This document shows positions 11,796 to 62,535 of a DNA stretch of 64,000 nt, piece after piece. Source of the stretch: a virus; IMG/VR virus record IMGVR_UViG_3300035034_000779, positions 1-64,000 of that record; one strand, given 5' to 3'. The notes beneath the pieces are model-generated. The model was not told where the DNA came from, ran no database searches, and saw only the letters and a program-made list of their open reading frames with translations. Each line of letters starts with the position of its first letter. Position 1 is the stretch's first letter. A program made the position numbers and the translations under genes.

Positions 11796-11803
11796 ATTAA
11801 TAC

Positions 11804-18425: not shown

Positions 18426-19671
18426 CTAATATATCCTTAAATTCTGGAAAAACTTTACTAAAATCTGTATGCCTTATTTTGTCAAGTTTGTCAATATAAT
18501 CAATATATTGAAGGAACAAATCTGAATGATCTTCAGAATCCATAAATTCTAATTGACTTTTAATTTTACTAGTCCATTGGTAATTTTTATTTAACTCGAT
18601 ATAACTTTCCCATTTTTCTCTTATTTTATGTTTAATACACTGTGGGAAGATTTGTATATTAAGATAACGAGGCCAGTGTACGGTTCCTGCGTGAAACAAC
18701 CCTTCATGATGCAACTTTCCTATCTTCTTAAAATCCTGTTTAAGTAACTCAGTTGCAAAATCCGGAATATAATATATATTCATAGCATGTATGGTTGCTA
18801 AAATCTTAACATCGATATTATCTGGTGTATTATCTAATCTATTTAGATTAGTTATTATTTGCTGCCAGTCTGCCGGATATCTAACATAATCATGATGTTT
18901 TCCCCATGCATCAATACTTACCATCAATTCAACAAACTTAAATTCTTTCCAAAGATCTATTATTTCTTCAGTTAATGTAGTTCCATTTGTGTGATAACGT
19001 AATTCAATATTTTTACTATGCCCTGATTCAACTAATTTTTTTATTAATCGAAGATGTTCTTTAATTAATAATGGTTCTCCGCCGGCAAATATAATGTGGC
19101 GTATATTAGAAAACATACCGTTAAAATCAGCCCATAATTTTTCATTTTTATACCAATCAAATCTTGTTGTATCAATGTCTGCTTTGTGTTGCCAATCCCA
19201 TTTAGCTTCAGTTTCAAGTATATCCTTTAGTTTTTTAGCATTGTTTAACCACATACTGCTATCTTGAGGACGGCACATCACACATTGTAAATTACAGGTA
19301 TTACCTAATCTAAAATCTAACGTAACTAAATCTTCATTTAACGTTCCGTCAACGTCGGTTGCTTCAATTAGACTATCAATCTTTTCTTGCCCTAATTTTT
19401 TAATCCATAGATTATTTTCATTTATACGATGGCTTCTAATTCCAACTGCTTCTTCCTTGTAACAAGATTCACATGCTGAAACTTTTTCTCCGTTTAACAT
19501 CTTAACACGGGCTTCTTTAAAATGATCACTATTCCAGATTTCAGAAACAGTGTTATCATTAAGATTTAACTTATGACTATTCTTTGCTACACAACAAAGT
19601 AAGGCGCTACCATCTGTCCATGTTGCCATATGTGTCCAAGGTAGAACGCAAAAAGTTTTTGAGTTATTCAA
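18418..19671 (-). CDS. twitch-type radical SAM enzyme, TTG start
   Basis: 417 aa. Twitch cysteines C8, C26-C27 and ACESCYKEE; radical SAM motif CNLQCVMC followed by RPQDSS; FAGGEP; VSIDAWGK. No ATG lies near the expected N-terminus. A TTG at 19671 with AAGGAG about 7 nt upstream (inside the end of the previous gene) gives an N-terminus (KTFCVLPW) that matches the paralogues, so I take it as the start. The family phrase EIWNSDHFKEAR is present. It aligns best with the 10407-11795 protein. Substrate unknown. Confidence 0.87.
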   Translation of the reverse strand: MNNSKTFCVLPWTHMATWTDGSALLCCVAKNSHKLNLNDNTVSEIWNSDHFKEARVKMLNGEKVSACESCYKEEAVGIRSHRINENNLWIKKLGQEKIDSLIEATDVDGTLNEDLVTLDFRLGNTCNLQCVMCRPQDSSMWLNNAKKLKDILETEAKWDWQHKADIDTTRFDWYKNEKLWADFNGMFSNIRHIIFAGGEPLLIKEHLRLIKKLVESGHSKNIELRYHTNGTTLTEEIIDLWKEFKFVELMVSIDAWGKHHDYVRYPADWQQIITNLNRLDNTPDNIDVKILATIHAMNIYYIPDFATELLKQDFKKIGKLHHEGLFHAGTVHWPRYLNIQIFPQCIKHKIREKWESYIELNKNYQWTSKIKSQLEFMDSEDHSDLFLQYIDYIDKLDKIRHTDFSKVFPEFKDILDG

Positions 19672-20953
19672 AATTTAACTCCTTTGCTAGATCTGGTATA
19701 GAATTAGTAAAATTTTCTTTCCTTGATTTGTCTAATGCTTTTGTCATAGTTATAAAATTTTGATAAATCTCTTTGTGATTATCTCTCAATGGTCTTCCAA
19801 ATAAATTTACTATTCCATTTATACTATTTTGTGTTATATGGTCTTCAATTTTATTCTGTTGTTTAAAGGCTAAAAGGTTTTCTATTCCTTTTTTTCGTAT
19901 TTCTAAAGGTATAATAGTTACATCTAAATATGTTGGATGATCATTTATCAAAAAATCAACACTAATAGATTTATTATATTCTTTTGATACTTGATTAGCA
20001 TACTCAAGTATGTTATGACAATCTAAGATATTATAGACTTGAATTACTGGACTCATTCCAAGTCTTACATTAGACAAGGATGCTAATTTTCTAAAATTAG
20101 TATCAACTTTGTTCCAATTACTAGGAGATCTAATATAATCATTTACTGATCCTATACCGTCAATACTGCAATTAATCTTTATACTTTTAAATTTTGAAAC
20201 TAAGTCAAGAAATTTATCAGTTACGTTAGTGCAATTGATGTTAAAGAATAATTCTATTTGATCGTTATATCCTGCTGCAACACACTCTTCCATAAATCTG
20301 TAATTGTTCTTAATAAGAGTAGGTTCTCCACCTGTCATATAAACTTTTTGAAGCTTAGGTATCATTCCTATAATTTCATTCCATAAAAAATTACTATCAA
20401 AAACAACTTCTTCTTCTTTTAAATGTATTGGATTATTTCCAAATTCAGAAGTCCAAACGGATTTATATCCTTCATCTTGTTCATACAAAGGAAAATGTTC
20501 TTTAGCAATTTGGCTACTATTAAATGGATTACACATACGACATTTTAAATTACAAAGGTTACCTAGTCGCAAATCTAAATATACAGGAGGCAATTTAATC
20601 TTCATATCATTTTCGACAGCTTCTTGCACATAATCATAAAATGATTCGCCTAAACGATGCTTCCATTCGTTTGTCATCATTTCACGAAAACTTGTTTTGC
20701 CAATATCTTCTTGCTTATAACAATGACTACAAGCTGTAACCTTTTTACCCTCTATCATTGCACGCCTTACTTCTACCATGCTTTCGCTGTTCCAGGCTTC
20801 CTCAATACTAGATGTTCCAACTGCTAACTTTTTTCCATTTTCGTCTCTAAGTATAGCTTCTGGACCAGAAGCTATACAACAAAATCGTATAAATGTATCT
20901 GTGTTGAGCATAATACCTATAAAAGGCATTGCGCAAAATGTTTTTGATTCCAT
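19664..20953 (-). CDS. twitch-type radical SAM enzyme, first of the array
   Basis: 429 aa. Twitch cysteines C7, C25-C26 and ACSHCYKQE; radical SAM motif CNLKCRMC followed by NPFNSS; MTGGEP; CSIDGIG. It is the promoter-proximal radical SAM gene of the operon and lies one nucleotide after the stop of the glycosyltransferase-like gene. An insert of about 30 residues after NPFNSS (YKSVWTSEFGNNPIHLK) is specific to this copy. Substrate unknown. Confidence 0.88.
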   Translation of the reverse strand: MESKTFCAMPFIGIMLNTDTFIRFCCIASGPEAILRDENGKKLAVGTSSIEEAWNSESMVEVRRAMIEGKKVTACSHCYKQEDIGKTSFREMMTNEWKHRLGESFYDYVQEAVENDMKIKLPPVYLDLRLGNLCNLKCRMCNPFNSSQIAKEHFPLYEQDEGYKSVWTSEFGNNPIHLKEEEVVFDSNFLWNEIIGMIPKLQKVYMTGGEPTLIKNNYRFMEECVAAGYNDQIELFFNINCTNVTDKFLDLVSKFKSIKINCSIDGIGSVNDYIRSPSNWNKVDTNFRKLASLSNVRLGMSPVIQVYNILDCHNILEYANQVSKEYNKSISVDFLINDHPTYLDVTIIPLEIRKKGIENLLAFKQQNKIEDHITQNSINGIVNLFGRPLRDNHKEIYQNFITMTKALDKSRKENFTNSIPDLAKELNFE

Positions 20954-31480: not shown

Positions 31481-31488
31481 TATTTATT
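31481..31488 (-). promoter_or_regulatory. late-promoter-like octamer AATAAATA
   Basis: AATAAATA on the minus strand, overlapping the stop codon of the giant gene and ending about 19 nt before ATG 31462. It matches the element before the gp6 gene exactly. GAAGG follows 8 nt downstream and may serve as ribosome binding site. It would start a separate transcript for the fibre region. Confidence 0.45.
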
Positions 31489-34400
31489 CTGGTAGCTCAA
31501 CCGATCTTGCTCGGATAAAGCGTGATATGTCATTATCTGCATAACGAATGGATATTCCTTGGTCTGTCCAAGTTTTTCCTATTTTTCGTACTACAACAAT
31601 GTTTGAATTTTCTAATGGATCTTCAGTTAGTGTTAAAGTTGTACCGTCTACTGAAAATTCTACAGGAAGGGTAATGTCTGCTTCTGGAGAATCTTGATCA
31701 ATTGTTTTATCAAATGATTGTATCTCTGTTTTCCTTAAACGTCTTCCTCCAACAAAAACCTCTATTTCATCTACATTTGATGCAACAAAATCAAGCGTGT
31801 AAAGGTTAGTAGTTCCATCGGATTGAAAAACTTGAGTTCTTGTTTGATCCTTGTACGGTATTGTTTGTCCAGGGCCTTGCTCGTACACCTTTGTACCTGC
31901 TACATAAAGATCTTTTACTCCAGTTCCTAATGTGCCTCGACGTAATTGACGCAAAGTGTTGTCTTGCTTGACAAAATATTCAATACGTTCACCATCTAAG
32001 AAAACCACTCCTGGAATATTTTTTTCTTTATTAGGTTCTGGTAATGTTGTTCCATCGGTTACTTCAATTCGAAGATCCCACCAATTTAGATCCGATGCTA
32101 GAATATAAGTCATGGTTTCATCAAGTCTCTTATAATGAGTCCTGTTTAACATATCCTTGAACTGTCTAAATCCAAATGTATCAGTTTTCTTATCAGCTGT
32201 AAAGTGTATATAGTCAACAACATCCCCTTCTGCTAATTCACGTACGATTCGAAAACTATTCAAATCGTCTGTTACATAGTAATCAACACTTGGAGAAAGT
32301 GTTTCACCATTTATAGAAACCCATACATATTGTGCATCTTGTGCAGGTGACTTTAATTTAATTATGCCATTTGACAATTGATTATACGTTGAATAGGCTT
32401 CTGTTCCTACTATGATTGCTTCCCGGGCAACTATATCATATGTTTTGCGATTGATATCTTGTACATCATGATTAGAAAATTGCCAAACTTTAATAGTAGC
32501 ATCTATTGCAGGTGCTGTATCAAATGTTAGAGTAGATCCTTCAATAGTATATTCACCGTCGTCTATTATATAAACTAGAAGTTTGTCATTTACTGTACCT
32601 ATGTCTGTAAACAACAGAACTGAAGAATTAAAAGTGTCCCATCTCCAACTAATTGTTTGTTCAAGTTCTTCTCCATTTAAGAAAACTCTAAGATTATCAG
32701 TTGCAATGGTTCCTCTTGGAATTTGCCAAGTTTCAATAATATATTCGCGAGCAGTTGTTACATTAAATTCTTGAGTATATCCTGCCGATAGCATTTGTCC
32801 GTCTACTTCAACTAAGGTACGATACCTAGTTGGATCTTGAGAGAAAGGTGCATTGCTTAATTCAAATTGTTCTGTTGAACCGTCACCAATTAATTGTTCA
32901 AGTTCAACTACGCTAGAAACAGTCGTTGGACTATCATAAACAATAACTCTTATTGTTGCGCCTTCTGCTGGAGGAACAGCAAATTCAATATCAGTATTAC
33001 CAATATTGTCGTATATAATTACACTACTTCCGGATAACGGAATATTATCTAAGAATGATAGAACATATTGATTATCACCAAATTCGTCAGTTAAAATTTG
33101 ATATTGATAGAATTGCGGTAATTGCTCAATGCCGTCTACTGTTATTACTGAATCAATACTTGGATAGTAAGGAAGTTCAAAGTTTACAGTTGATCCGTCT
33201 GCTATCAAAGAAATTTCATTTTCACGTACATTCTTTGTTAAGGTAACTTCGGTTGGAACTCCATTAACCATCACATTTGCTGTTATATTTCCATCACTAT
33301 ATCTTGCTGCTGTTGAAAAAGTTGAAGTGCTTCCGTTTCCTGTTAAGGTTATTGCATCAAGAACACTAGTTCCGCTTTCCCCTACCACTACAATATTAAG
33401 TTCTTGATTTGCTACCGGTATTGCATTAAATGTTAATTCGTTTGTTTCCCAATCTACTGAATAAGAATTTACAATTTGATTTGAAATTTTAACAAATATT
33501 GCATCTTGACTATTTGGTCTTTCAACTAATGGATAGGTTTCTGTTATTCCATCTGTTATATAATTAGCGGAATAAATTCGAGATCCTCCGTTTCCAACTC
33601 TGTCATACACTTGTATGTCAAGTGTATCAAGTACTTGTCCAGGAATTAATTCTTCTGGTCCTTTACTGGTAGTCGGAGTTACAAATCCATCACCGTCTAC
33701 TACAATTTGATCGGCTGCAATACCTTTTGCAGTTTGATAAGCCATGTCTCCACCTTGTAACAAGGTGTCATAAGAATCCGGATCTGGAAGGAACGAACCA
33801 TCAGAAGTTGATTTTCTTACTATAATAACATCGCCATCGCCTGCATCAATATTAATATTTTGAAGATTTATAACATCAGTTACACCGTCTCCTTGTATTG
33901 GTTGTGTTACAGCGTTTGGATTAGATGGAGTTGAATCACTAGGATCATCTAAACGAATACCATTTTTATAAATGTTATATTCAACTCCGTTTTCTAATGG
34001 TTGTGCTAGTTCAAGAACAATAGTTGATCCATCCAAAGTAAAGATTTCATCTTCAAAGGTAGTATCATATGTGTCCCATGTTCCGGTATACCATGGTTCG
34101 GTATCCCAGCCGCCGCCGCCTGAAAATCCAAACGAACGAACCTCAACTCCACCATAATCAATACCATCCATTAACTGTCCAAGATCTTTACCAAATTGTC
34201 CCGACGTTGGATTATAATAGAAATTAATACGATCCTGTGCTGTGAGCATAAGAGCATTTTTCTTATAATTGATTACAATCGCTGCACCATTAGATGGTGG
34301 ATTAGTAAATCTTATTTGTCCTTTATATCTATCATATCCTTTACTTTCATCAAGTAAATTGCTAAATTCGTATTCAGAACGTAATACTTCTTGTCCATTT

Positions 34401-37400
34401 ATTGTTATAGAAACTGTATTGGTTCTTAAATCCATAGGCCATTTTAAATTGAAGTTTGTACGAGAAGCAGTACCATTAAATGATTCTGATTCATCTATAT
34501 TAAGGATGTAATACGATCCATTAACTCTATCAAATTTAACAGCTATATGAGAACTACGAACAGGTGAGTCTCCAATTATAGCAGACGCTCTTGCTGGTAC
34601 ACTTCCTTCGATTTGAGGTCTTTCTATTTCAACTTTTGGTGCCGATGTATAATTAGACCCAGAAGTTAATACAGTAATTGAATTTACAGAACCTGATCCG
34701 ATATTTGCCCTTGCGGTGGCTCCTGTACCGCCGCCACCTATTAGGCGAACAACAGGTCTTTCTGTGTATCCTGTTCCACCATTGCTTATTCTTATTTCCG
34801 TAACCGAATAAGCATAATTATCAAGCCAATGTTTCCAAGGATAAGACTGTGTCTTATTTGTTACACCTGTTAATACTCCATCTCTTATTTTTACACTTTC
34901 TGGAAGTATTTTCTTACGGTCTTCGTTATACGAAGGTGGTAGATCAAAATCTGTTACAACAGAATGGGTGTCATCTTTGCTATCATATGTTGAAAGATAT
35001 TCTCTTATCTTTGTTTTGTAAGGTTTAACTTCAAATATATAATCTTCGTAACTTGGAAGATTATCATTTTGATAAGTAGTCTTTTGTTGCAAAGTTCCAA
35101 CATTATGGGTTGCCTTAACAAAACTAGTTTTAAAGGCCCAATCAACATATCCTTGTTCTGTAAATACATAACGGAGACTTGCAAAGAAAAGTTTGTTATA
35201 CTCAACTTCTAATTGATCAACAAACAGATCATCTCTTATTATCTCTAATATCTTACGTATCTCTATTGCTGGCTCACTATCATATAATGTAATATCATAA
35301 TTGTTAACATCAAATCCTGTTTGTCCAGCAGCTGGATCATAAAGAGAAGAACTAAATTGTATTGTTCCATTTTCTCTACCTATTGTTTCATAATTAACAG
35401 TATAGTCAATAGTATCTTGATCGTCTACTTTAAGAAGCAATAACCAACCACCTGAACCAATATTACGAATCTTAGTTACATTTCCAATTATATCATTTAA
35501 TGCAGTTAATTCATATGCTTCGTCAATTGTATAATCAACTTGTGAAAATGTATTATAACCGGTTGCATACCAATCTGAATATTCCCAATATGAAGTTACA
35601 TCATAATCTTGTGTTCTGCGACGTTCCCATTCTCTTAGGGTTTGATTCCAGCTATATATACTCCATTTATTATTAATAAATTCATCATTTTCAACTAATA
35701 TAGAGAACGGACGTACAATTATAGAAGTTGTAGAATCATATCCAAAACCTTCATTTGTTACAGTTACACCGGAAATTCGACCAATTCCGTCAAGTGTGAT
35801 TTCAAAATCAGCATCCTGACCTTTTCCTATAATCTGAAATGTTGGTATTCTTAGATATCCTCTACCTTGCTCTGCTATATCAATTCTTGTTATTTTTCCA
35901 TCTTCTATAACAGGAGTTAATATTGCTCGAGAAAATCGGGATGTTCCAACAAACTGTAATTGTGCAAAATTATCAACTATATTATCAAATAAATTGGTTA
36001 CAATAGAAGGTGCAGGATCTTGATCTTCGAGTGCTGATAGATCAAAATCATCCACTATTAGATTTTCGAGCAATACTGCATTAGTTCTTTCAACTACTTG
36101 TTTAAGTGCTTCTTTGCGGTTAATAAACCAACTTTGTCTTGGTCGATTTAGGTTTCCATATCTTATTTTTGGACTTAGTTCTATATTTGGTACTTCTTGG
36201 AAGAATCTATCTTTTCCGACCAAAGAATCAAACCATTTTGTTTCAATATCTCTTTTTGGTTTACTTGTTCCTAATCCATCAGTAATTAATTGATATTCAT
36301 TATGTATGTTCATATCTCTATTGTTTAATTCCCAAAATTGGAAACTAATTATTAGATTTTTATCTTCAAGGAATCTATCTAAATTATTAAGAGAAAATCT
36401 ATTTTCAGATAATAAACTTGCAAAACGATACTGTTGTCTAAATGGATTTGCAATTAGATTTGTTATATCATTAATGCTTATAGTACGAAATTCTACATTT
36501 GGTACCGTTACTTTGTTCTTAACCCAATAATAATACCTTGATTCAAAACTTTGTGCAATGCTATCATATTTTTGTTTAGTTGTATATGCGGCATCACCAT
36601 ATTTTGTCGTTCCTGAAATATTATTTGCAAGACCTTCGTCTGTGTCAGACAAACTATCCCATTCGGATGGCAACAAGGTTGTTTCTACCCACTCATATAC
36701 ATCAATACTAGCCCCAGGAAATAATTTATTCCAGGAATTGGTTTGATATATTATATCTCCTTGATAAGGATTTATAAACAACGCATTGGTTAAATCCCAC
36801 CAAACTCTTCCAACATAACGTTCTGCCCAATGTTCAGTTTCATCTACTATAACCTCTTCATCTCCTATATTATAAATGGCAGGATCATAATATGTCTTAT
36901 AGGTAATATCTTGATCTGCTATACCTGCAATTTTTCCTTGTATTGGATCAATAAAATCAACATTAGATTCGTATTGATTTGTTCTTTTATTATAAACAAA
37001 TGCGGTTTTAATATCATTTATATTTACAGGATCTATTGGTTCACGATGAAGCGACCATGTATTTGTATTTTTTGGCTTTCTGTAATCTAACAACAATCCT
37101 TCATACAGATCATCTTGTAATCTAGCTCGTGGTATTCCGATGTATACATGATTATTTTTCACTAATACATTTTCACCAAAGAATGTTAAATCGGTATCTA
37201 TGTCCTTAAAAGAGAATGCATCAGCATAAACTAATGTATCATTAATTTTTTCATAAAGCTGTACCAATCCTGTATTAAAGTCTATATTTACAAATCGTGT
37301 TAATCTTTGATCAAAGTATGTTGAATCTCCGTCAAAAGTAGTTTTTGCTTTGATATCTCCATTTAAACTTGTGATAACTAATTGGTTGTCGTCAAAAGAT

Positions 37401-40400
37401 AATTTGTATCCAAATTTTTCAGCTTTTTCGTTACTGGTACTTTTTAATATTTGATTTGAAACAAAAGTTCCGGCTGTTTGTTTATAGATATGAACACGGC
37501 CTTGATCAACTCGTCTTGAATCATTGTATGGTTCACCCACTGCTAAGAAATTACCATTATTTGATAATGCTATTGATTCTCCGTATCCTGTAAAATCTTC
37601 AGGTGCTTGTATCACTTGTGACAAACTAAAATGGTCATTTTCTCTACGATAAATTTCAATAGTTGATTGTTTTGTACTATCATTTCCAGTTAGCTTTGAA
37701 GAAACTGCAAGTATCTGTCCATTGTCAGATATGTCAAAATCATATGCAAATTGCAAGATTCCCGGAACAGAGCTATCTGGATTTCCAGGTGAAAAGATAT
37801 CGTCATTTATGTTATCTTCTGCATTTATTGGAATATATCCTGTGTATGATACATCAGAAGAACTTTCAATCCAATCTTCTTCATCAAACACACCGGGTGC
37901 TAAATTAGTTATAGAATGGTAGGTTTTTGTTCCAACTCTTACAATTTCATTTTCTTTATAGAAAACATTATCCTGGAAAATTCCTCGGTAATTTCGATCT
38001 TTTGCTCTTTCCCAAACATACGTTATTCCATTTCTATTTCCGTGTAGTACCATATTAATAGTACCAGGTAAGTTAACCGTTCCGTTTCCACTTGAAGAAA
38101 TATAAAAAGTATACAAATCATTTTGCTTAGAAACTTTAACTTGGGCTCCTAATCTTCTATCATTTTCTGCTTCTGGAACAACAAACGAATTGACGTATTC
38201 GTATGAACCTCTTACTCTACGTTCATATACTGAATACATTCCTTGGTTTGTGTATCCACTTTCTGTTCCAAATTCCGTTGCTTCTATATTGTAAACTTGT
38301 ATCCAATCTCTGTTATTAGAAGATGGTAAATTAGCGTCCCTAGGAATACCAGATATATTAAAATCTTCTGTATAAAACCAATATTCTTGACTTGATATAC
38401 TTTGTAGATTTGGTATTTGTAGTAGATCATTTTCTTCTATTACGATAAGTTTACCAACTTCAGAAGTTCCTAACGATACCTGACGTATTGCTCCTATGGT
38501 ACGAACAGGAGAACCCTGTCTTGATACGTTACCCGACTCTCCCCATAATGAACCAAGTCTCCAAGTTCCTGTTACATTCTTAACATAAACCCTAACATCA
38601 TTGAAGTTTCTCTTATAGAATACAACTTCAGCCGTTGCTCCGGTTGTATTATCAGATATGACATCTCCAACTACTGGTTCAAATGGATCCCCTACTACTC
38701 CGTCTGGCTCTTCGTCTGCTATCTGAAATTCTGTAAATTCAAAATCAATATAACCATCCCAAAGATCCTTAACTTCTAATTCAACATCAAAATCTACATT
38801 ACCTAATCCAAGATTAGTTAAAGGAATTTCTGTATTTGGATAAAAACGGAATTTATCTCCGTTTCCTGTTCCTGCTAATAATGAAGTATTAGTTATCGTG
38901 TCTGTAAATGCTTTTGGTGCTCTTACTACCCAGCGATCGTCTAATTGGTCAGATTCTATTAATGCGTAAGGATCTCCTCTATACGAAAGCACAGATAGAT
39001 ATGATATTTCTTCGTTTTGATTTGCAATTGTACCAAGATCTTGCAATATTTCAGTTACATTGTAATAGAAATTAGGACGAAGTGGATCGGTATATTCGGC
39101 TTCGGTTGCTCGCAATACATCTTGTATTATTAATCCTCTACCTTCGTCTGTATACACATCGTCAACTACACTGTTAACATAAGAAGGTGCTGAAATTTGT
39201 AAGTATCCACCAAGACCAGTTCCTGCATCGTAATCAGGTATAACATAACTACCAATTAAAGTATTTTCACTATCATAAATGTCACCCGAGCTATCAAAAG
39301 TTCCATTTAAATTTTTAATATAAATTATTAATGATGCATCACTGTTATCAAAATAGGTTACAATTCCAGAAGCAGAGTCTGAAGATATTTGTTCCCCTAT
39401 CTCTGGCAATGCACTCCATCTATTAACATAGATGATATGCTCTATTTTTTCTTCAATTGTGTGCCTATCACTTATGTAATCTGCATCAATGCCTATTATG
39501 TTTCCGTCAAAAGGTTCTACTGCTGTTGATTGATCTCCGTTTTCTTGTGTATAACTATTCCATTTTAATACTATATCATCTCCAACTGCAACACCGGCAT
39601 ATATATCTGCAGGTGCTCGAACTAATATGTGATCAACGTTTGTTTCTTCTAAATTATAATTACCAAGAGTTAGAAGTTTAATTAGACTAGAGTCAGAACG
39701 TTCTGCAATTTGACTATAAGAATCAAATGTTGAAAATTCAATATTGTCAGTTGCACCTAATATTCTTAGACGAGCTTTCCACAAACTATCAAGATAACGA
39801 ACAACTGCATTTTTTTCATAATCTATTACTGTTGAATATTCACCTTTATATCGTGTCTTAACGTTTGATGCTTCTGGAGAACCAATTATTAAATACTTTC
39901 CGTCTTCTGAAAGTGCAACAGAAGTACCAAATCTTCCACCAATATCCATTATATTTTCCGGTGGTGTTATAGAATTGCGAAATACTAAATTATTAAGATC
40001 TGCTGACCTTGAGTACACATGAACTTTACCATCTAATGTTCCGGGAGAACCAACTACTAATTCATTATTAGTAGAAGATGCACTAACTGATGTAGCAAAT
40101 TGATCATCATTTGAATCAAATGCATCTGGATTTAATATCTGAGTTTGTTGAGCATAAATGGTATCTTTTTTGAATACTGACCAATTACTGTTTAACCCAT
40201 TGTCAATCCATATAATTTCACCATTCTTAAGACCTAGGTCCTGTATAGTTTGATTTGCTAACTGTAGGTTACTAAATCTCTTACTTTTAAATCTTGCGAT
40301 TCGTCCTTTTGAAATTTCTTCTGTACCTAAACCTTCTGTAGCAAGAACCAACACGTTTGCTCTAACATCAAGGATTTCATAAAATCCTTCACCCTCGTTA

Positions 40401-43400
40401 ACATCAAATATTCCTATTATTTCACCTGGTTCAAAATCAGGTGAATCATTCAATACAATGACTGTTCCATCTGTTATATTAGACGCAGTTGAATCGTTTT
40501 GTCTTATTGTATAAGAATCGGTTATCTTTTCAATTTGATAATTAGATGAAGAAAATCTATAAACATTCCATGTGTTATTTTCTTTACCTACCCATACATA
40601 ATCACCTTCTGTTAGATCACTAAAATCAAGATTAAGAATGCTTTTGTAGTCAATTAAAGACTGTACTACATCGTCTGTATGAATATAACCCGCCGTCTTT
40701 AAGAATTCTGTAAAATTTGCTACTGTCGGAAAGGGTGTATGATCATAATTTAAATTTTTAAGATATGTCTCGCTTTCTCGTATCTTGTAAATTAAACGAG
40801 TGTCATTTGTATCAATTGTATTAGTTAATTCGATAGGTTGTGGAGTTAAGAAAAACTTTGTTTCATCAAGTGCATATTCAATTTCACTAAATTTTTCAAC
40901 TGCTCCAATTTGTCCTACACGAACTCCCCATTCTTCGTAAAATTCAAGACTTTCTTTATCTGCCGAAGCAAGTGCATCAAACAACTTAGTAAGTGAATTC
41001 TTTGTACCTTTATCAGCAATGTAACCTTGATAAAATTTGTATTGACTTATGTCATCATTTATAATATTCTTTAGGTAGTCTCTATCTTGATAACCAATTA
41101 GATGCTGAGCCATTCTCTGTTGCTCTCCATCAAAATTATCCGTGTCTAAACTATAAAAATCAGAAAATTCTGAAATTTTAAAATCAAAGTTAGTACGAAG
41201 TTTTGGTTCTGGTCTTTCGCCTAGACGAGTCCAGTCTTTTGTGGAGAATTTGTCTGTTCCAGAAATTTTATTATTCGAAACATAATAAAATTCTTTGTAC
41301 TTAACTAGATCACCTATTGAATAATCTTTGTTTGTTTCCCATTCTGTTACCGTTGCACTGTCGTATATGAATCCAGGTATGTTAAGACCACCTGTCCAGT
41401 TATCTGAACGATATCCAACTACTCGAATTCTCTCCTGGCGATAACCTGGTTCTAAATCATACAATATATCATTAAAGACTGTTCTATTATCTAATAACAA
41501 TACATGTTCTTTTTGAACTAATGGCAATTTAATATTGTAAATTCCATCTGCTGTTTCACGAGGAGAAACAATAAAATCATTTTCGTTATTACGAACACGA
41601 CTAGTAAAATCTTCTTTTAGTTTTTGTCCATCAGCTTTAAACAAACTATAATCATAAAAATTATCAAACAAATTATCAACTACAGAAAATTCACTCTTAA
41701 ATTTAATTTGAGCAGCTCCGGGGCTAAGTGTAATACTTGAATTTTCCTGCCAATTTTGTGTTGTCCAAAATGCAAATTCCTTAATTGATTGCACCCAATC
41801 TTCAACCACTCCTGCATCTTTATCAAAATAGTCAAATATAAATCCTTTATCGATAAGATATGCTTGGTATCCAAATATAAAATCTGCTACTTCTTGAATG
41901 GTCTTAAAGACAAATCCGTATGGTATTTCAAGCACTCTTCTTTTATCAAAACTTTTTCTTATATAAACATCGCGGCCGCCATCTATTGGTAGTCTTGGTA
42001 GTACCGCAAATTTTTCTATATCAAAAGATGATTCGCTTACATGAGCTGTTTTGGTTCTGTAGAACTTAGACTGGTATTGAACTACTTGTCCTACTAAGTA
42101 TCTATTGTTTACATCCCAATTTACAAAAGATTGTGACACACCACCTATATTAATAAGTGTATCATTATTAAGTTCGTGTGCTCTAAAATAACTAAACCCG
42201 GGTGAATTACGATCATACCCGCGGATTGCATATCCACCAGTTAGACGTTCAATTATTACACCGGAATAGTTTATTACTTCAACCGGAGAACTAGTATTTA
42301 AGAAAATATTATAATTTTCTTTTGGTATTAAAACATTACTCTTGTTAAATGGAGTACGAGAATCAAGTATTAATTCAAACTTATCCTTGTCAGTAAATCC
42401 ACCAATTTTTGCACCTAGTTGTGTTGTTATTGATGTTAACCTGTCTTTATAATTTTCATAGCTTAATAAAACAGAACTAGCCAAATAATTATACATAAAA
42501 TTAACTAATCCGGCTGTGTTAATTCTTGTATTCCCCATTATTGTATTAGGAAAAATCAAATCGGCTGTTCTTATTTGTTCTTGTGATTCGGTGTATACCA
42601 AATGACCTGCTAAGTCTCTTTCAATACGAGAAATGTCAAATCCTATTCCCATCACTTTTGAAGGCTGATTTAATAACCAAGAAGTTATTAAACTAAAAGG
42701 ATATTCAGAACTTTTACGCCATGCAGTTTCTACAGGTGCTTCGTCTCCGAATGCAAATTCTCTAACAGTTAAATTTGAAATATAACCCTTTGCATAGTTC
42801 GAATCTAAAGGACTAAGCAAGTTTCCTTGGCTGTCAACTGGTATATGGGTTGTCAATCCTGGACGAGCATATTTGGTTAGATATTGTGGATTTGTTCCAG
42901 GTTCTTTTATAGCACCTTGTTCTAAATCATTCCACAATATTAAATTGTCTCTAGTATATGGGGCTGGTCCATACTTGTCTGTCCACCAATCTGGCATAAC
43001 TGTAAATCCAAGCATTTCCCAAGGATTTGTATGTGGACGATCAGTATCATAAGCTTCTTTATAAACTGCTCTCCAAAATCCCGGTAATGGTTTTCCGCTA
43101 GGTGATGACATAAATTTATAATTGTAAGTGAAAGTATCACCGTTTACATAAAAATTATTGTTGGTATAATCAACCGATCCGACAACAGATAACCATTGTG
43201 TAAAATCATATATCATCGAATCATTTATACTATCTCTAGTATAATTTGTTGAACGAAATTCACCGCCGACAAAATCTTTTATATCTAATATATCAGTTCT
43301 ATATGGTTGTTTAAGGTTATTATAAATTCGAGTCTCTAATTCAAGTAACAAATCATCTCTATAATCATCATATGCTCGAGTTAACGATCCATCATGACCC

Positions 43401-46400
43401 TGTATCATTACTGTAGGAGTACGATAAGTTGTGTCATTTATTATTGCAGGACGATATGCCTGATACAATCCTAATTTTGTAGGAGTAGGAGGTATGAAAC
43501 AACCATCTGTTGTTTCATATTCATATATTTCAATTATATCATCAATTTCTTTATCTGCCGTAATAATACAAAATCCATTGTCATTAAACGTATAATCTTT
43601 ACCATGGATTAATTGAGATTCATTTTTATAAACTAAAACTGCAATTGGTGATAGTTCACCAAGCGTAAATGGCTGAGTTAGAGCAAAAAATTCATTTCTT
43701 GTATCTACTACTGTATATTCTAATTTTTTAGATGGTCCAGACGGCAACATATCCGAGAAATAAAATGGCATAGTATTGGTTTTTGCCTTGTTCATTTCTC
43801 CTAGAATTCTATCTACATGTTCCTTTATAGTTCCATCAAATCCTAAATTAAAAGCAGTTTGGAAAAACAATCTCTTAAATTTAGCATATTCTTTTCTGTT
43901 AAATCTTAAAGCCTTAACTATATTGTTTTCTTTATCGGTTATATGAAAATTAGCAAGGTTAAACGGACCAGAATGCTTAACTATCTTTGTACCATATTGA
44001 TCTATTTCACCCAAGTCTCTTAGATTTGAATTGCCGGGAAAATTACCATTAAATTCAAATGCTTCTTCAACTATCGTAGTAACATGATCATTAACTTCAC
44101 CTAGTGTAAAAGAAAGAATATTATTGTTAAGTGGATTTCTTTCAAGGTTAGTTGGTATTTCGTAATAGCCATTATCATTTTTAGGAGTTAAACTATTACT
44201 CTTTATTAATATTCTATCACCCGGAACTAAATCTGTAAAAAATCGAACATATGCAATACCGTTTATTCGATTAATTTCATAATCAATTTCAAAAAACTTT
44301 AGGTTATTGTTAACATATACCCAAACACGCAGATCATTTAACTCTCCGCTACGGTTATAGACATCAACAGGAAAATCATTAACAATGTCTTCACCAAAAA
44401 ATTGTCTAGTTACTTTTTGTCTACTATTGCGACGACCTTTTGTCCAGCCATTTTTATAACTAAATTCTTCTCTCTGTGAATATTTTTGAAGATAGGCTAT
44501 TTTAGAATCAATCATTATTTGTGTGTTTGATTGAGCATAGGTATAGCTTTCATTTAAAAGATTAAAATCAAAAACAATATCTCCTACATTTTCAAAAGCA
44601 CGATATGAAAGGGCAAAACCTAATTCAGTATCAACTATTCCTGTTCCTCGACGATAGGAAAAAATAGAATTACCACGAAAGTTTGTTGCATCATAAACAG
44701 TTTGATCTGCGTAAGAAATTCCGTTTTTGTCAAAGAGATCAAATTTTGGTTCTTGATTTATTTCTGTTTTCTCTTGCCCTCTTATCCAACTAGACCCGTT
44801 ATAGAAATAAATTTGTCCTGCATTTTCTACACCTTGTTGTACCAAAACAGTTTCGTTTAATAACGGTTGTGTATCAATAGTTTCACGTAACGCAATTTGA
44901 CGACGGTTTTCAAAAGTAACAAAGGTTACTTCATATATTTTGTTTGCAACAAAACTATCTGGATCTGCTGTAAATAAGATACGTTGTCCTTCAGTTAAAT
45001 CAATGCCATCTACATTGTAACCAATTGATCCTTCAATTGTTGAAAATACATCCGTTGTAAAATTATCAATAAGAGCAATATCAGTTTTAGAAGCTGATCC
45101 AAAATTATATAACTTTAATCCTGCTTCAAATTCAATAATAGGACGTTTTGCTCTCTGTGCTTGGTCAACTTCTACTTCAGTTCCGTTTATTATAGCACTT
45201 GTTTCTATTACACCTCTGTGGAACCAACGATTATAACGAGTCCACGCATTTCGGTCAAGGCTTGCACGGTTTATAACGATGTAATCTTTCGTTCCTGCAA
45301 AAGATGACGAATTTGCATACGGAAGTGTATCAAATCCATCTGTGTCAAACGGTATTTCTAAATTAGTTGAATAAGCAGCTGGAATTTCAAGATCATTTGA
45401 ATTAATCAACTTTATTTCACTGCCAACTCCTTCAACATACCATTCACCTGTAGAATATATTTCAGGAGTTACATCTCCTTGAAAATATATTTTCATTCCG
45501 TTACTAATATCATATCCAGTTGAAGTTTTATAAGCACGCTTTCCTATAATTTCTTCTTCTACATTGATTTCGGTATTTTCTTCAATATCATATATCTTTA
45601 TAAATCCACTTACATTTACATCATTTTTTGAAATATAATAAAGTTTGTCTGGTGCATTTTCTGGAACTTTAAATTCAATAAATCCTTCTTCAACATAGAC
45701 AACAGCAACTTCTTCAAATTCTTCGTTGTATCTTGTTACACCGTCATTATATATTTGTGAACGATTAATTGCTTCTCCGGGGGTTACTCCTCCAGGATTA
45801 GGATCAACTACGAAAGGTCCAACATCATATTGTTCTCCGTCATATGGAGCATTGTCGTATAGACCACTTGCTTTTATTCCCTCTGTCGTAGCAACTAAAA
45901 TGGCTTCGCCCGGTGTAAATGATCGAGATGTAGCAAATGCTATAGGATGATTAGGGGTATTAATTTGAAAACGATAAGTTTGACCTCTAAATAACTTTAA
46001 AGTTTTGTTTGGGGTGAACCCATTTGGAGTAAACAAATAGGCAAGGCTATCACCTTGCTCTGCTAATTCTACTGTAAGAGTTGATTGTACTTCTTTTGCA
46101 TTACCCCTAACAGGTACCGGCTGTGGTCCATTTGGTAACCAATAATATTCACGAAAATTAGCAATTTTATCCCAATCAATATTTGGATTCCAAGCATAGT
46201 ATTCTTGTGCATTTAATATATTATGATTAGACGTATTGCCTTTGAATGCAGTAGTCTGATTAATAAAATCTTGGTAATCTTTATAAAAGAGTACATTTGA
46301 TAGATCGTCTTTTATAACTGTTGCTGGTTCTAATTGGTAATTTTCTCTTTGAGAAGTTACTGCTCCGACATAGCTATCATCTTTCTTTCTTGCTTTAGAA

Positions 46401-46591
46401 ACCCGGCGACCAAAATATCCGGATAGCTTTTCGGCTACTCCGGGTTGTATCATTTGGTCAAGGGTAGCGTTTAAGAATTTTTCATTAGTTGGTGTACGAA
46501 AAAATCTTGGGAGGAATTGTGTACTTTTAACACTACGATCAGGCTTTTCTGGGTTTATTGGGTATTCATTTTGATTATTGTCGTAAGCCAT
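31484..46591 (-). CDS. giant baseplate-region structural protein (5,035 aa)
   Basis: One uninterrupted reading frame of 15,108 nt. It sits directly after gp6 (1-nt overlap), the position of T4 gene 7, but is about five times the length of T4 gp7. The N-terminus is basic and soluble. At residues about 2160-2260 and 2950-3150 there are FG-GAP-like beta-propeller repeats (FGTSVALSEDGKYLIIGSP, YGESIALSNNGNFLAVGEP). At about 3560 and 3940 a GxGY-type repeat occurs (IAEQGRGYLRIPTFQI, NGGTGYTERPVVRL). Residues about 4030-5000 hold a series of beta-sandwich-like units of the form DGSTxxFxLxxxP. Few Cys, no membrane segment. It probably forms part of the wedge or a baseplate-attached adhesin. Large proteins at this locus are known in marine T4-like phages. 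Confidence 0.82.
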   Translation of the reverse strand: MAYDNNQNEYPINPEKPDRSVKSTQFLPRFFRTPTNEKFLNATLDQMIQPGVAEKLSGYFGRRVSKARKKDDSYVGAVTSQRENYQLEPATVIKDDLSNVLFYKDYQDFINQTTAFKGNTSNHNILNAQEYYAWNPNIDWDKIANFREYYWLPNGPQPVPVRGNAKEVQSTLTVELAEQGDSLAYLFTPNGFTPNKTLKLFRGQTYRFQINTPNHPIAFATSRSFTPGEAILVATTEGIKASGLYDNAPYDGEQYDVGPFVVDPNPGGVTPGEAINRSQIYNDGVTRYNEEFEEVAVVYVEEGFIEFKVPENAPDKLYYISKNDVNVSGFIKIYDIEENTEINVEEEIIGKRAYKTSTGYDISNGMKIYFQGDVTPEIYSTGEWYVEGVGSEIKLINSNDLEIPAAYSTNLEIPFDTDGFDTLPYANSSSFAGTKDYIVINRASLDRNAWTRYNRWFHRGVIETSAIINGTEVEVDQAQRAKRPIIEFEAGLKLYNFGSASKTDIALIDNFTTDVFSTIEGSIGYNVDGIDLTEGQRILFTADPDSFVANKIYEVTFVTFENRRQIALRETIDTQPLLNETVLVQQGVENAGQIYFYNGSSWIRGQEKTEINQEPKFDLFDKNGISYADQTVYDATNFRGNSIFSYRRGTGIVDTELGFALSYRAFENVGDIVFDFNLLNESYTYAQSNTQIMIDSKIAYLQKYSQREEFSYKNGWTKGRRNSRQKVTRQFFGEDIVNDFPVDVYNRSGELNDLRVWVYVNNNLKFFEIDYEINRINGIAYVRFFTDLVPGDRILIKSNSLTPKNDNGYYEIPTNLERNPLNNNILSFTLGEVNDHVTTIVEEAFEFNGNFPGNSNLRDLGEIDQYGTKIVKHSGPFNLANFHITDKENNIVKALRFNRKEYAKFKRLFFQTAFNLGFDGTIKEHVDRILGEMNKAKTNTMPFYFSDMLPSGPSKKLEYTVVDTRNEFFALTQPFTLGELSPIAVLVYKNESQLIHGKDYTFNDNGFCIITADKEIDDIIEIYEYETTDGCFIPPTPTKLGLYQAYRPAIINDTTYRTPTVMIQGHDGSLTRAYDDYRDDLLLELETRIYNNLKQPYRTDILDIKDFVGGEFRSTNYTRDSINDSMIYDFTQWLSVVGSVDYTNNNFYVNGDTFTYNYKFMSSPSGKPLPGFWRAVYKEAYDTDRPHTNPWEMLGFTVMPDWWTDKYGPAPYTRDNLILWNDLEQGAIKEPGTNPQYLTKYARPGLTTHIPVDSQGNLLSPLDSNYAKGYISNLTVREFAFGDEAPVETAWRKSSEYPFSLITSWLLNQPSKVMGIGFDISRIERDLAGHLVYTESQEQIRTADLIFPNTIMGNTRINTAGLVNFMYNYLASSVLLSYENYKDRLTSITTQLGAKIGGFTDKDKFELILDSRTPFNKSNVLIPKENYNIFLNTSSPVEVINYSGVIIERLTGGYAIRGYDRNSPGFSYFRAHELNNDTLINIGGVSQSFVNWDVNNRYLVGQVVQYQSKFYRTKTAHVSESSFDIEKFAVLPRLPIDGGRDVYIRKSFDKRRVLEIPYGFVFKTIQEVADFIFGYQAYLIDKGFIFDYFDKDAGVVEDWVQSIKEFAFWTTQNWQENSSITLSPGAAQIKFKSEFSVVDNLFDNFYDYSLFKADGQKLKEDFTSRVRNNENDFIVSPRETADGIYNIKLPLVQKEHVLLLDNRTVFNDILYDLEPGYRQERIRVVGYRSDNWTGGLNIPGFIYDSATVTEWETNKDYSIGDLVKYKEFYYVSNNKISGTDKFSTKDWTRLGERPEPKLRTNFDFKISEFSDFYSLDTDNFDGEQQRMAQHLIGYQDRDYLKNIINDDISQYKFYQGYIADKGTKNSLTKLFDALASADKESLEFYEEWGVRVGQIGAVEKFSEIEYALDETKFFLTPQPIELTNTIDTNDTRLIYKIRESETYLKNLNYDHTPFPTVANFTEFLKTAGYIHTDDVVQSLIDYKSILNLDFSDLTEGDYVWVGKENNTWNVYRFSSSNYQIEKITDSYTIRQNDSTASNITDGTVIVLNDSPDFEPGEIIGIFDVNEGEGFYEILDVRANVLVLATEGLGTEEISKGRIARFKSKRFSNLQLANQTIQDLGLKNGEIIWIDNGLNSNWSVFKKDTIYAQQTQILNPDAFDSNDDQFATSVSASSTNNELVVGSPGTLDGKVHVYSRSADLNNLVFRNSITPPENIMDIGGRFGTSVALSEDGKYLIIGSPEASNVKTRYKGEYSTVIDYEKNAVVRYLDSLWKARLRILGATDNIEFSTFDSYSQIAERSDSSLIKLLTLGNYNLEETNVDHILVRAPADIYAGVAVGDDIVLKWNSYTQENGDQSTAVEPFDGNIIGIDADYISDRHTIEEKIEHIIYVNRWSALPEIGEQISSDSASGIVTYFDNSDASLIIYIKNLNGTFDSSGDIYDSENTLIGSYVIPDYDAGTGLGGYLQISAPSYVNSVVDDVYTDEGRGLIIQDVLRATEAEYTDPLRPNFYYNVTEILQDLGTIANQNEEISYLSVLSYRGDPYALIESDQLDDRWVVRAPKAFTDTITNTSLLAGTGNGDKFRFYPNTEIPLTNLGLGNVDFDVELEVKDLWDGYIDFEFTEFQIADEEPDGVVGDPFEPVVGDVISDNTTGATAEVVFYKRNFNDVRVYVKNVTGTWRLGSLWGESGNVSRQGSPVRTIGAIRQVSLGTSEVGKLIVIEENDLLQIPNLQSISSQEYWFYTEDFNISGIPRDANLPSSNNRDWIQVYNIEATEFGTESGYTNQGMYSVYERRVRGSYEYVNSFVVPEAENDRRLGAQVKVSKQNDLYTFYISSSGNGTVNLPGTINMVLHGNRNGITYVWERAKDRNYRGIFQDNVFYKENEIVRVGTKTYHSITNLAPGVFDEEDWIESSSDVSYTGYIPINAEDNINDDIFSPGNPDSSVPGILQFAYDFDISDNGQILAVSSKLTGNDSTKQSTIEIYRRENDHFSLSQVIQAPEDFTGYGESIALSNNGNFLAVGEPYNDSRRVDQGRVHIYKQTAGTFVSNQILKSTSNEKAEKFGYKLSFDDNQLVITSLNGDIKAKTTFDGDSTYFDQRLTRFVNIDFNTGLVQLYEKINDTLVYADAFSFKDIDTDLTFFGENVLVKNNHVYIGIPRARLQDDLYEGLLLDYRKPKNTNTWSLHREPIDPVNINDIKTAFVYNKRTNQYESNVDFIDPIQGKIAGIADQDITYKTYYDPAIYNIGDEEVIVDETEHWAERYVGRVWWDLTNALFINPYQGDIIYQTNSWNKLFPGASIDVYEWVETTLLPSEWDSLSDTDEGLANNISGTTKYGDAAYTTKQKYDSIAQSFESRYYYWVKNKVTVPNVEFRTISINDITNLIANPFRQQYRFASLLSENRFSLNNLDRFLEDKNLIISFQFWELNNRDMNIHNEYQLITDGLGTSKPKRDIETKWFDSLVGKDRFFQEVPNIELSPKIRYGNLNRPRQSWFINRKEALKQVVERTNAVLLENLIVDDFDLSALEDQDPAPSIVTNLFDNIVDNFAQLQFVGTSRFSRAILTPVIEDGKITRIDIAEQGRGYLRIPTFQIIGKGQDADFEITLDGIGRISGVTVTNEGFGYDSTTSIIVRPFSILVENDEFINNKWSIYSWNQTLREWERRRTQDYDVTSYWEYSDWYATGYNTFSQVDYTIDEAYELTALNDIIGNVTKIRNIGSGGWLLLLKVDDQDTIDYTVNYETIGRENGTIQFSSSLYDPAAGQTGFDVNNYDITLYDSEPAIEIRKILEIIRDDLFVDQLEVEYNKLFFASLRYVFTEQGYVDWAFKTSFVKATHNVGTLQQKTTYQNDNLPSYEDYIFEVKPYKTKIREYLSTYDSKDDTHSVVTDFDLPPSYNEDRKKILPESVKIRDGVLTGVTNKTQSYPWKHWLDNYAYSVTEIRISNGGTGYTERPVVRLIGGGGTGATARANIGSGSVNSITVLTSGSNYTSAPKVEIERPQIEGSVPARASAIIGDSPVRSSHIAVKFDRVNGSYYILNIDESESFNGTASRTNFNLKWPMDLRTNTVSITINGQEVLRSEYEFSNLLDESKGYDRYKGQIRFTNPPSNGAAIVINYKKNALMLTAQDRINFYYNPTSGQFGKDLGQLMDGIDYGGVEVRSFGFSGGGGWDTEPWYTGTWDTYDTTFEDEIFTLDGSTIVLELAQPLENGVEYNIYKNGIRLDDPSDSTPSNPNAVTQPIQGDGVTDVINLQNINIDAGDGDVIIVRKSTSDGSFLPDPDSYDTLLQGGDMAYQTAKGIAADQIVVDGDGFVTPTTSKGPEELIPGQVLDTLDIQVYDRVGNGGSRIYSANYITDGITETYPLVERPNSQDAIFVKISNQIVNSYSVDWETNELTFNAIPVANQELNIVVVGESGTSVLDAITLTGNGSTSTFSTAARYSDGNITANVMVNGVPTEVTLTKNVRENEISLIADGSTVNFELPYYPSIDSVITVDGIEQLPQFYQYQILTDEFGDNQYVLSFLDNIPLSGSSVIIYDNIGNTDIEFAVPPAEGATIRVIVYDSPTTVSSVVELEQLIGDGSTEQFELSNAPFSQDPTRYRTLVEVDGQMLSAGYTQEFNVTTAREYIIETWQIPRGTIATDNLRVFLNGEELEQTISWRWDTFNSSVLLFTDIGTVNDKLLVYIIDDGEYTIEGSTLTFDTAPAIDATIKVWQFSNHDVQDINRKTYDIVAREAIIVGTEAYSTYNQLSNGIIKLKSPAQDAQYVWVSINGETLSPSVDYYVTDDLNSFRIVRELAEGDVVDYIHFTADKKTDTFGFRQFKDMLNRTHYKRLDETMTYILASDLNWWDLRIEVTDGTTLPEPNKEKNIPGVVFLDGERIEYFVKQDNTLRQLRRGTLGTGVKDLYVAGTKVYEQGPGQTIPYKDQTRTQVFQSDGTTNLYTLDFVASNVDEIEVFVGGRRLRKTEIQSFDKTIDQDSPEADITLPVEFSVDGTTLTLTEDPLENSNIVVVRKIGKTWTDQGISIRYADNDISRFIRARSVELPE

Positions 46592-61219: not shown

Positions 61220-61461
61220 TAGTAGACCGAGAAGATTTAACAGATACCGAAACACAAGATCAACTTATTCAAGCATATCTTGAATATTTTGATCTTATAG
61301 AACAATATCGACGTCGTAGATCTTATCGTACCGCTATACGGGCAAGGAAATCACTAGCATACGTGATAAAACTTTGTCGCAAGCGCAGAAAGGAAATTTC
61401 AGCGGATCATGCCGTCGAAGTCGAAAACAAAAGGGAGCTCGTTCGAAAGAGAAATAAGTAA
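61216..61461 (+). CDS. small basic protein
   Basis: 81 aa, very rich in Arg and Lys (YRRRRSYRTAIRARKS, LCRKRRKEIS), ending KRELVRKRNK. ATG 61216 overlaps the gp46 stop (ATGA). The basic helix-forming sequence suggests nucleic acid binding. Small proteins at this locus are usual in marine T4-like phages, and no function is known to me. Its last 53 nt overlap the start of the nuclease-like gene in another frame. Confidence 0.68.
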   Translation: MIVDREDLTDTETQDQLIQAYLEYFDLIEQYRRRRSYRTAIRARKSLAYVIKLCRKRRKEISADHAVEVENKRELVRKRNK

Positions 61462-61939
61462 TTTTCTCACTGAGCTGTATGAAGAATCATTTATTAGAGT
61501 TAAAGACTCTGGAGCATTTACTGGTGGGAAAAATACCTTTCGCAAGGATACACTAAGTGAAGGACAAATAAGAGCAGCAAAAGGCGACATAGTTCCGCCG
61601 GATAGCTGGAAACATTTCAATTGTGAATGTAAGTCTTATAAAGAATTTCCTTTTCATCAAATGTTTACAGACGGTCCAGTTCCGCTGCTTGAAACCTGGA
61701 TTGAACAAACACTAGAAGCAGCAGACGATGGCGATTTTAGTATCATTTTTATGAAATTTAATCGCAAAGGCATATACACAGCATATGAACTACCACAAGG
61801 CAATCATTTTAAAACAATTAGGCATTTAGATTATACAGACAAAACAGGCAAAACATGGAGATTTACAGGCTTTAATGATTTTTTTGGGCTTAATTCAGAG
61901 GCATTTAAAACAATATCAACAGGCACACCTAAACAATAA
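61409..61939 (+). CDS. PD-(D/E)XK nuclease-like protein
   Basis: 176 aa. GSSFEREISNFL (Glu of the first helix), KGDIVPP (Asp) and CECKSYKEF (ExK) give the order E-x-GD-x-ECK of PD-(D/E)XK nucleases, similar to Holliday-junction resolvase-like or RecB-like phage enzymes. It may cut branched DNA in the recombination pathway of gp46/gp47, next to which it lies. AAGGAAA 12 nt or so before ATG 61409 is a possible ribosome binding site. Without a structural comparison the exact enzyme type remains open. Confidence 0.68.
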   Translation: MPSKSKTKGSSFEREISNFLTELYEESFIRVKDSGAFTGGKNTFRKDTLSEGQIRAAKGDIVPPDSWKHFNCECKSYKEFPFHQMFTDGPVPLLETWIEQTLEAADDGDFSIIFMKFNRKGIYTAYELPQGNHFKTIRHLDYTDKTGKTWRFTGFNDFFGLNSEAFKTISTGTPKQ

Positions 61940-61944
61940 ATCAA

Positions 61945-62275
61945 GGCAGTAAAGGCGTTTGGGCAATTAAGGCTTTAAAATACGAACCCTATTGGTGAAA
62001 GCCCTCCTTGAGGTTATGGTTAGTCCATTGCCGGATACTGGAGTTGTTCGAAGGATAAAGCTAACTTAAGGCTCAAACGACGTAGGCGCTGCGAAACAGA
62101 TGCAACCTACACGGTAAGTAATTTGGATTGGTACGGATATTACTGCCGCCCGTTGACACGCGAAGCTAGAGTAGGGAGTACAGGTCAACCGCTTCCACTG
62201 CAAAAGGCAACTTGCAAATCTCTTTTACCAAGAATGGTGTACGACTCACAGAAAAGATTCGAAGCGCTTTTTTTT
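61945..62275 (+). ncRNA. candidate structured non-coding RNA
   Basis: No credible gene lies in 61940-62535. On the plus strand the region tiles into helices: GGCTTT/AAAGCC (61971-61976/61998-62003), CCTC/GAGG (62003-62013), GTAGG/CCTAC with inner TGC/GCA (62082-62110), a 10-bp stem with one bulge (62112-62122/62139-62148), GTTGAC/GTCAAC (62152-62157/62184-62189), and CGCTTC/GAAGCG (62190-62195/62261-62266) enclosing an 8-bp stem with a 2-nt bulge (62217-62226/62252-62259). Eight T follow at 62268-62275, a plausible 3' end. It is more GC-rich than its surroundings. I found no tmRNA, RNase P, group I/II intron or tRNA signature. GOLLD or ROOL classes remain to be tested. Confidence 0.5.
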
Positions 62276-62301
62276 ATACTTCGCCCGTAAGGGCGAAGTA
62301 T
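62276..62301 (+). other. perfect 11-bp hairpin with GUAA loop
   Basis: ATACTTCGCCC and GGGCGAAGTAT pair without mismatch around GTAA, a GNRA tetraloop typical of stable RNA. It directly follows the T8 run at the end of the candidate RNA. It is not a terminator on either strand because no U-run follows it. It may be the first helix of a second domain or a protecting stem if transcription reads on. Confidence 0.55.
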
Positions 62302-62331
62302 GACCGGATCTACAGAAATCATCTCGCGCTA

Positions 62332-62428
62332 ACAGTTAATCACATAAGAGAGATTAATAAAGCTAATTACTTAAGAGAAATTAGTGTGCGAGCGCAAGCG
62401 AAGCACTGGCGCGTGCGCCACTAACTGT
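62332..62428 (+). other. second structured domain in the gene-free region
   Basis: ACAGTTA at 62332-62338 pairs with TAACTGT at 62422-62428 and closes a region that holds CTAATT/AATTAG (62363-62368/62379-62384), GTGC/GCAC around 62385-62405 and TGGCGC/GCGCCA (62407-62420). An alternative, TTAGTG/CACTAA (62381-62386/62419-62424), competes with two of these. This could be a switch or a multi-branch junction. The function is unknown. Confidence 0.4.
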
Positions 62429-62502
62429 ATATCATTATGTTGCACACAACTCTAGAAAGAATTAAAATATCTGATTGTAATACTTCTTTGTAAGTTCTAT
62501 AT

Positions 62503-62510
62503 GATAAATA
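62503..62510 (+). promoter_or_regulatory. late-promoter-like octamer GATAAATA
   Basis: GATAAATA on the plus strand, 33-26 nt before ATG 62536, with CGGAGA as ribosome binding site. It is identical to the minus-strand element at 26923 and separates the following gene from the early or middle genes upstream. Confidence 0.5.
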
Positions 62511-62535
62511 AAAGCAACTTACGGAGACCCTATCT

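Follow-up and report, generated by a model that had tools for sequence, protein, structure and literature searches.

A pseudoknotted, single-copy noncoding RNA with coupled twin 7-mers at a fixed locus of giant phages

What does a long gene-free gap in a viral genome contain, when the open reading frames on either side reach its very edges? The gap considered here occupies positions 61940-62535 of a 64,000-nt stretch of DNA (positions 1 to 64,000 of the IMG/VR record IMGVR_UViG_3300035034_000779; hereafter the window), flanked by an ORF that ends at 61939 and by one of unknown function that starts at 62536. A preliminary description made from the sequence had noted this gap and its elevated GC content, and both observations hold: the GC fraction of 61955-62256 is 0.46 compared with 0.335 for the whole window, a value that only 2 of 1274 equally long windows attain. 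A conserved reading frame, which that description had named as contrary evidence, is absent, as 0 of 188 relatives are open across the RNA on the plus strand, and a scan of the gap for sigma-70-like promoters returned none above chance. The gap holds a real noncoding RNA, encoded on the plus strand. Elsewhere in the window, on the minus strand, about a dozen radical-SAM-like proteins (CxxxCxxC, read by eye) form one block at 1105-20953 that is unusually dense for a phage and also includes glycosyltransferase-like and desaturase-like ORFs, and a single ORF of 5035 aa occupies 31484-46591 in the tail/baseplate region.

The preliminary description had based its RNA-like reading on helices tiled by eye, which fared poorly as evidence. 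Minimum-energy folding does no better than random expectation (z +0.64 for 341 nt and -1.98 for the full gap), and because it shows no excess stability, helices drawn by eye are not acceptable on sight; the evidence for an RNA fold is instead the covariation among relatives. When 27 diverse copies are aligned, five helices, one of them pseudoknot 1, comprise 22 pairs and are 96.6% paired, with 113 double-change cells observed vs 31 after shuffling and 5-18 when the helices are slid, so that the compensatory change proposed as a check proved overwhelming. One of the early helices, 62152 with 62189, is exactly right and corresponds to pseudoknot 1 (GTTGAC/GTCAAC), whereas the adjoining one, 62190-62266 (CGCTTC/GAAGCG), is unconserved and clashes with a conserved helix; the T8 tract (62268-62275), taken at the time for the end of the RNA, is internal and equally unconserved.

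Pseudoknot 1 is 99.3% paired, with double changes at 4 of 5 pairs, and its variants include GTTGA/TCAAC, GCGAC/GTTGC, GCGTA/TACGC, GTCAG/CTGAC, GAAAC/GTTTC and others. Pseudoknot 2 pairs the P3 loop with the strand behind P5 and was assessed by a separate, alignment-independent test, in which the loops and strands of the same element formed a mean of 6.2 contiguous base pairs, compared with 3.3 for cross pairs and 4.3 for the best permutation. Both pseudoknots are backed by the alignment, and both are missed by energy folding. Further variation is seen in the 5' hairpin, with 23 distinct fully paired stems among 67 relatives. At one conserved pair, 25 of the 27 sequences have G-U, and therefore the plus-strand RNA is the functional form. 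A covariance model (R1), built without the pseudoknots from 27 sequences that include the window's own, recovers nearly all fetched loci and scores the window, one of its training sequences, at 135.8 bits (E 9e-29); besides this score, P2, pseudoknot 1, P4, P5 and pseudoknot 2 all form in the window copy, and its two 7-mers are identical. The RNA is about 350-480 nt long, and the conserved double hairpin with a GAGCGnnAGCGA core probably marks its 3' end, because this hairpin lies downstream of the 7-mer region in 158 of 188 elements and is rare elsewhere. The number of AAGGC units at the 5' edge varies, L003 having one more than L002.

Table 1. Parts of the window RNA and its upstream neighbour, with positions in the window.
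Feature	Position	Strand	Basis or remark
PDDEXK_15 / RusA-like resolvase gene, upstream neighbour	61409..61939	+	SegE-type GIY-YIG gene fills the slot in other phages
AAGGC repeats, 5' edge	61943..61975	+	Read in the sequence; several copies here, 1-4 (A)AGGC(A) in relatives
5' domain	61955..62080	+	Clade-variable; equals Rfam RF01718 in one sub-clade; fold of the window copy uncertain
P2 hairpin GTAGG/CCTAC	62082-62086 with 62106-62110 (part 62082..62110)	+	Covariation helix
P2b TGC/GCA	62090-62092 with 62102-62104	+	Covariation helix
P2 invariant loop GAAAnAGA	within 62082..62110	+	Pattern matches
P3 hairpin	62113-62122 with 62139-62147	+	Alignment, read by eye
Pseudoknot 2, 5' strand TTGGTA, in P3 loop	62128..62133	+	Own-pair vs cross-pair test
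Pseudoknot 1, 5' strand GTTGAC	62152..62157	+	Covariation
P5 5' strand AGAG	62168..62171, pairs with 62220-62223 CTCT	+	Covariation helix
P4 5' strand GGGAG	62174..62178, pairs with 62192-62196 CTTCC	+	Covariation helix, 100% paired
Pseudoknot 1, 3' strand GTCAAC	62184..62189	+	Covariation helix
P4 3' strand	62192..62196	+	Covariation
P5 3' strand	62220..62223	+	Covariation
Pseudoknot 2, 3' strand TACCAA	62226..62231	+	Own-pair vs cross-pair test
3' module 1: CTC + X1 = ACAGAAA (62248-62254)	62245..62254	+	Comparison with relatives
GC hairpin ATACTTCGCCC-GTAA-GGGCGAAGTAT between X copies	62276..62301	+	Hairpin equally placed in relatives
TATGACC ahead of 3' module 2	62299-62305	+	
3' module 2: TCT + X2 = ACAGAAA (62312-62318)	62309..62318	+	Comparison with relatives
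Conserved double hairpin, GAGCGnnAGCGA core	62383..62420	+	158/188 elements, rare elsewhere; probable 3' end

How widely is this RNA distributed? A search with the upstream nuclease gene led to 13 phage loci, 10 of which carry a structured gap directly behind that gene, and the window gap shares sequence with 4 of these 10. The core pattern GTAMNGSYCAACCGCCTC matched at least 120 IMG/VR contigs, and the independent hairpin-loop pattern GGCTCTGNGAAANAGATACAACC likewise at least 120; chance matches to the latter are negligible because it has 21 specified bases, and among 84,980 cellular genomes it is present in only 2. The large phage records that match (n = 25, up to 347 kb) have essentially one copy each, a second match in one of them reaching only E 0.003, and hundreds of giant phages keep the RNA in single copy. 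Two copies of intermediate type, L254 and L256, reach 29.6 bits, and a Synergistaceae match (L252) was set aside as chance, since it comprises the loop motif only. Some copies (L084, L028, L042) have long extra domains between pseudoknot 1 and P4, as in phage PA5oct, and one contig bearing the large RNA also bears a freshwater-2 RNA (RF02980; L132 12867-12948).

The genomic slot is fixed. In nearly all contigs the RNA lies between gp46 and gp26, and nearly always directly behind a resolvase-type endonuclease gene; in about 230 contigs this gene is of either of two unrelated kinds, SegE GIY-YIG or PDDEXK_15/RusA-like, interchanged between gp46 and the RNA, and the genes downstream differ among these contigs.

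Judged by gp46, PA5oct, MIJ3, Paride and related jumbo phages are the closest phages in culture. A blastn search with four elements against 50,697 cultured phage records gave no match, and the laboratory-grown Pseudomonas jumbo phages PA5oct and Paride have a candidate divergent copy in the same slot. The PA5oct candidate, in NC_071039.1 at 76.2-76.9 kb, has the loop motif of P2, a hairpin at P3 that ends in TTCCG and the strict arrangement of pseudoknot 1 plus P4, CCGGGAG ... TGAG-TTTAG-CTCC-CCG-CTCA, which 6 of 3000 shuffles match. Its covariance model score is below significance, and because the model alone is non-significant, the proposed homology rests on synteny, the P2 motif and the strict pseudoknot descriptor. 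In PA5oct the nuclease gene is on the strand opposite the RNA; two short annotated hypothetical proteins over the RNA region (L247 7453-7605 and 7751-7870) are probably false gene calls. Phosso and Atu_ph07 have no convincing copy. With two unrelated upstream nucleases, differing downstream genes and a nuclease on the opposite strand in PA5oct, the RNA is not a fixed untranslated region of one gene.

Relatives also occur in bacterial chromosomes. Pseudomonas sp. BBP2017 and a second Pseudomonas genome have copies with 77% identity across 583 nt; each copy is part of an island at tRNA-Ser(CGA), beside purC, that also carries a tyrosine integrase and a serine resolvase (L325, L326). The island cargo comprises PD-Lambda-2 B and C, an AbiJ-like protein and a type VI defence-associated reverse transcriptase (RT_VI), and the tRNA-Ser(CGA)/purC islands thus represent a site of anti-phage cargo. 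In a third genome the copy adjoins a serine resolvase. The island copies are not preceded by the resolvase-type nuclease gene, and such islands are rare, because only two of 369 Gammaproteobacteria genomes match. Their presence in chromosomal defence islands ties the RNA to phage-host conflict.

The second question raised by the locus concerns its twin 7-mers (X1 and X2, together X7). Canonical copies end in CTC-X7, a GC hairpin and TCT-X7, with X1 and X2 spaced 49-74 nt apart in most copies, and X7 differs between phages, 29 forms being found. Among the 188 elements of a set selected by near-identity, the two copies are identical in 172, the other 16 differing by one base, almost always the first or the last. 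With identity-blind anchors X1 equals X2 in 152 of 184 cases (shuffles: mean 19, maximum 30), and most of the 32 non-identical cases are anchoring errors. The matched tract is delimited at 7 bases because the flanking bases on both sides differ systematically. On a tree of 164 distinct elements, made with the X region left out, X1 requires 64 steps, X2 62 and both jointly 66; the two change together about 60 times, whereas control bases flanking X change independently. Distant relatives maintain the identity with other words, GCGAAGG, AGGATTGAG, GGTTGAT, CCTTCAGGTT and TTCTTCAG. We know of no described RNA with this signature of some sixty independent concerted changes of two identical loops. 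In the Pseudomonas copy X is TTCAGGT, all 5 of its occurrences in 8 kb fall within 700 bp surrounding the RNA (L253 3050-3755 = L326 7050-7755), and a 9-base version of it occurs three times at this L253/L326 locus.

Possible partners of X were sought at several levels. Exact matching, GU matching, mutual information and a column scan revealed no third site complementary to X within the RNA; neither X nor its complement is enriched within 6 kb, and no complement was found near the starts or ends of 98 conserved gene groups from 8 genomes with 8 different X. A role of X as an anticodon loop or in translational bypass was rejected, as frame and spacing are not kept.

Taken together, these observations establish a class of single-copy, noncoding, pseudoknotted plus-strand RNAs with a fixed locus and coupled twin 7-mers. 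For its function, the reading we prefer, whose chances we judge to be about even, is that of a trans-acting RNA, single-copy in jumbo T4-like phages, whose two X7 loops recognise, as one bivalent element, a nucleic-acid partner common to both. The RNA would be made in infection, either as its own transcript or cut from the transcript of the recombination genes; both trans action and expression in infection are suggested by the changing neighbours and the island copies. Its core consists of two interlocked pseudoknots, and its 3' end of two tandem modules, each with a helix, RTGRCY, CTC or TCT and the same X7. The pseudoknotted body would act as a scaffold or protein-binding part, and the twin loops might contact their partner in the manner of guide or antisense seeds. 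A few chromosomal islands with anti-phage systems would have acquired the same RNA. Against this reading stand the negative searches for a complement of X (in the RNA, within 6 kb and near the ends of the conserved gene groups) and the non-random X7, of which RGATRAW is the commonest form and which suits contact with a protein just as well. It is possible, and we put this tentatively, that jumbo phages and anti-phage islands share a categorically new RNA machine in which X7, a freely changing word that both 3' loops have to carry alike, is a phage-specific address for RNA-guided recognition of a nucleic acid, be it of self and non-self or of a host target.

The X pattern equally allows the two copies to be matched directly to each other. 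Identity itself would then be the mechanism: a strand moves from one copy to the other and skips the hairpin, with no third partner, by a polymerase or template jump, a splicing-like loop-out or DNA exchange over a 7-base overlap. Exactly 7 identical bases between systematically different flanks, the hairpin between X1 and X2 and the null result for a third complementary site speak for such a process; however, the right-hand flanks are not conserved as recombinase arms would be, the spacing varies, the 3' modules resemble RNA loops and no hairpin-less product is seen among the contigs, and we consider this explanation unlikely.

We assign the same low probability to an RNA-only or RNA-protein assembly scaffold, with the RNA as a multimer and the twin loops touching a homo-oligomeric phage protein symmetrically. 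The RNA is like GOLLD and ROOL in its size, its pseudoknots and its occurrence in phages, homo-oligomers are known for those two (PMC12286853), and a pair of identical sites suits a homodimer. The roughly 60 concerted changes, many of them A-G flips in close relatives, are nevertheless too fast for protein specificity, and self-pairing would need a complementarity that is absent.

A further reading is that the upstream recombination genes have here a 3' untranslated or processing element that acts in cis; in many phages the RNA begins at once behind the stop codon of the nuclease gene, and the gap is without a good promoter. Against this, the upstream gene varies (GIY-YIG, PDDEXK, opposite strand in PA5oct), the island copies lack it and the RNA is far more elaborate than a terminator, which makes such an element improbable to a greater degree. 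A DNA-level element (an origin, packaging or recombination site) that merely looks like RNA is suggested by the adjoining gp46/gp47 and resolvase genes and is highly improbable, given the plus-strand G-U pairs, one of them in 25 of 27 sequences, and the loop-to-strand pseudoknots that indicate RNA. The concerted change of the twin loops opens the function of the RNA to a direct genetic test, and the likely copy in PA5oct and Paride would place the RNA in laboratory-grown phages.

How does this RNA compare with known systems? In the antisense immunity of P4 CI RNA and c4, two like sequences, seqA and seqC, share one partner and evolve together; that partner, seqB, lies between them and is complementary, whereas for the large RNA, with its far larger body, searches of the RNA itself, of the surrounding 6 kb and of conserved gene ends gave no complement of X, which leaves room for a partner that is remote or in the host. 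The bypass of T4 gene 60 likewise involves short matched sequences that flank a hairpin and stand about 50 nt apart, but works in a reading frame, while the large RNA has no open frame and does not keep its spacing modulo 3. Searches of the window with ARAGORN and Rfam gave no tmRNA, two-piece forms included, and Rfam no group I or group II intron; the RNA is intergenic and keeps to one locus.

Large noncoding RNAs are known from other phages. In ICP1, a big lytic myophage, an ORF-less transcript is the most abundant phage transcript (PMC7567579); it differs in locus and phage, and was rejected as a homologue, the model having no match in ICP1. GOLLD and ROOL are large structured RNAs of phage genomes whose function is unknown (PMC12286853; PMC7567579). 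The preliminary description had proposed a new class with GOLLD/ROOL-like size and setting and without specific match to either. Both parts are upheld, the former by homologues in hundreds of contigs with massive compensatory change and the latter by the lack of Rfam matches in the window and 12 relatives; the anatomy of GOLLD and ROOL differs, and ARAGORN finds no tRNA gene of the kind typical of their setting in the 64 kb.

In the literature searched, neither the whole RNA nor its occurrence in phages nor the twin sequences are described, and cmscan against Rfam 15 gave no match in the window. The reading as a new class is qualified, as Rfam already lists the 5' domain of one sub-clade under the name of the orphan Polynucleobacter-1 (RF01718), whose 2010 table entry gives Burkholderiales and fresh water/estuary, not phages (PMC2864571). 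RF01718 matches the 5' domain in L009, L029, L039, L047, L078, L091, L114, L128 and L132 at 58-113 bits and fails to match the window copy even at E 10 (gathering threshold 37 bits). It covers only 141 nt and includes neither the pseudoknot core nor the X repeats. An Rfam orphan of 141 nt and a gap without annotation are thereby joined into one large RNA superfamily of jumbo phages.
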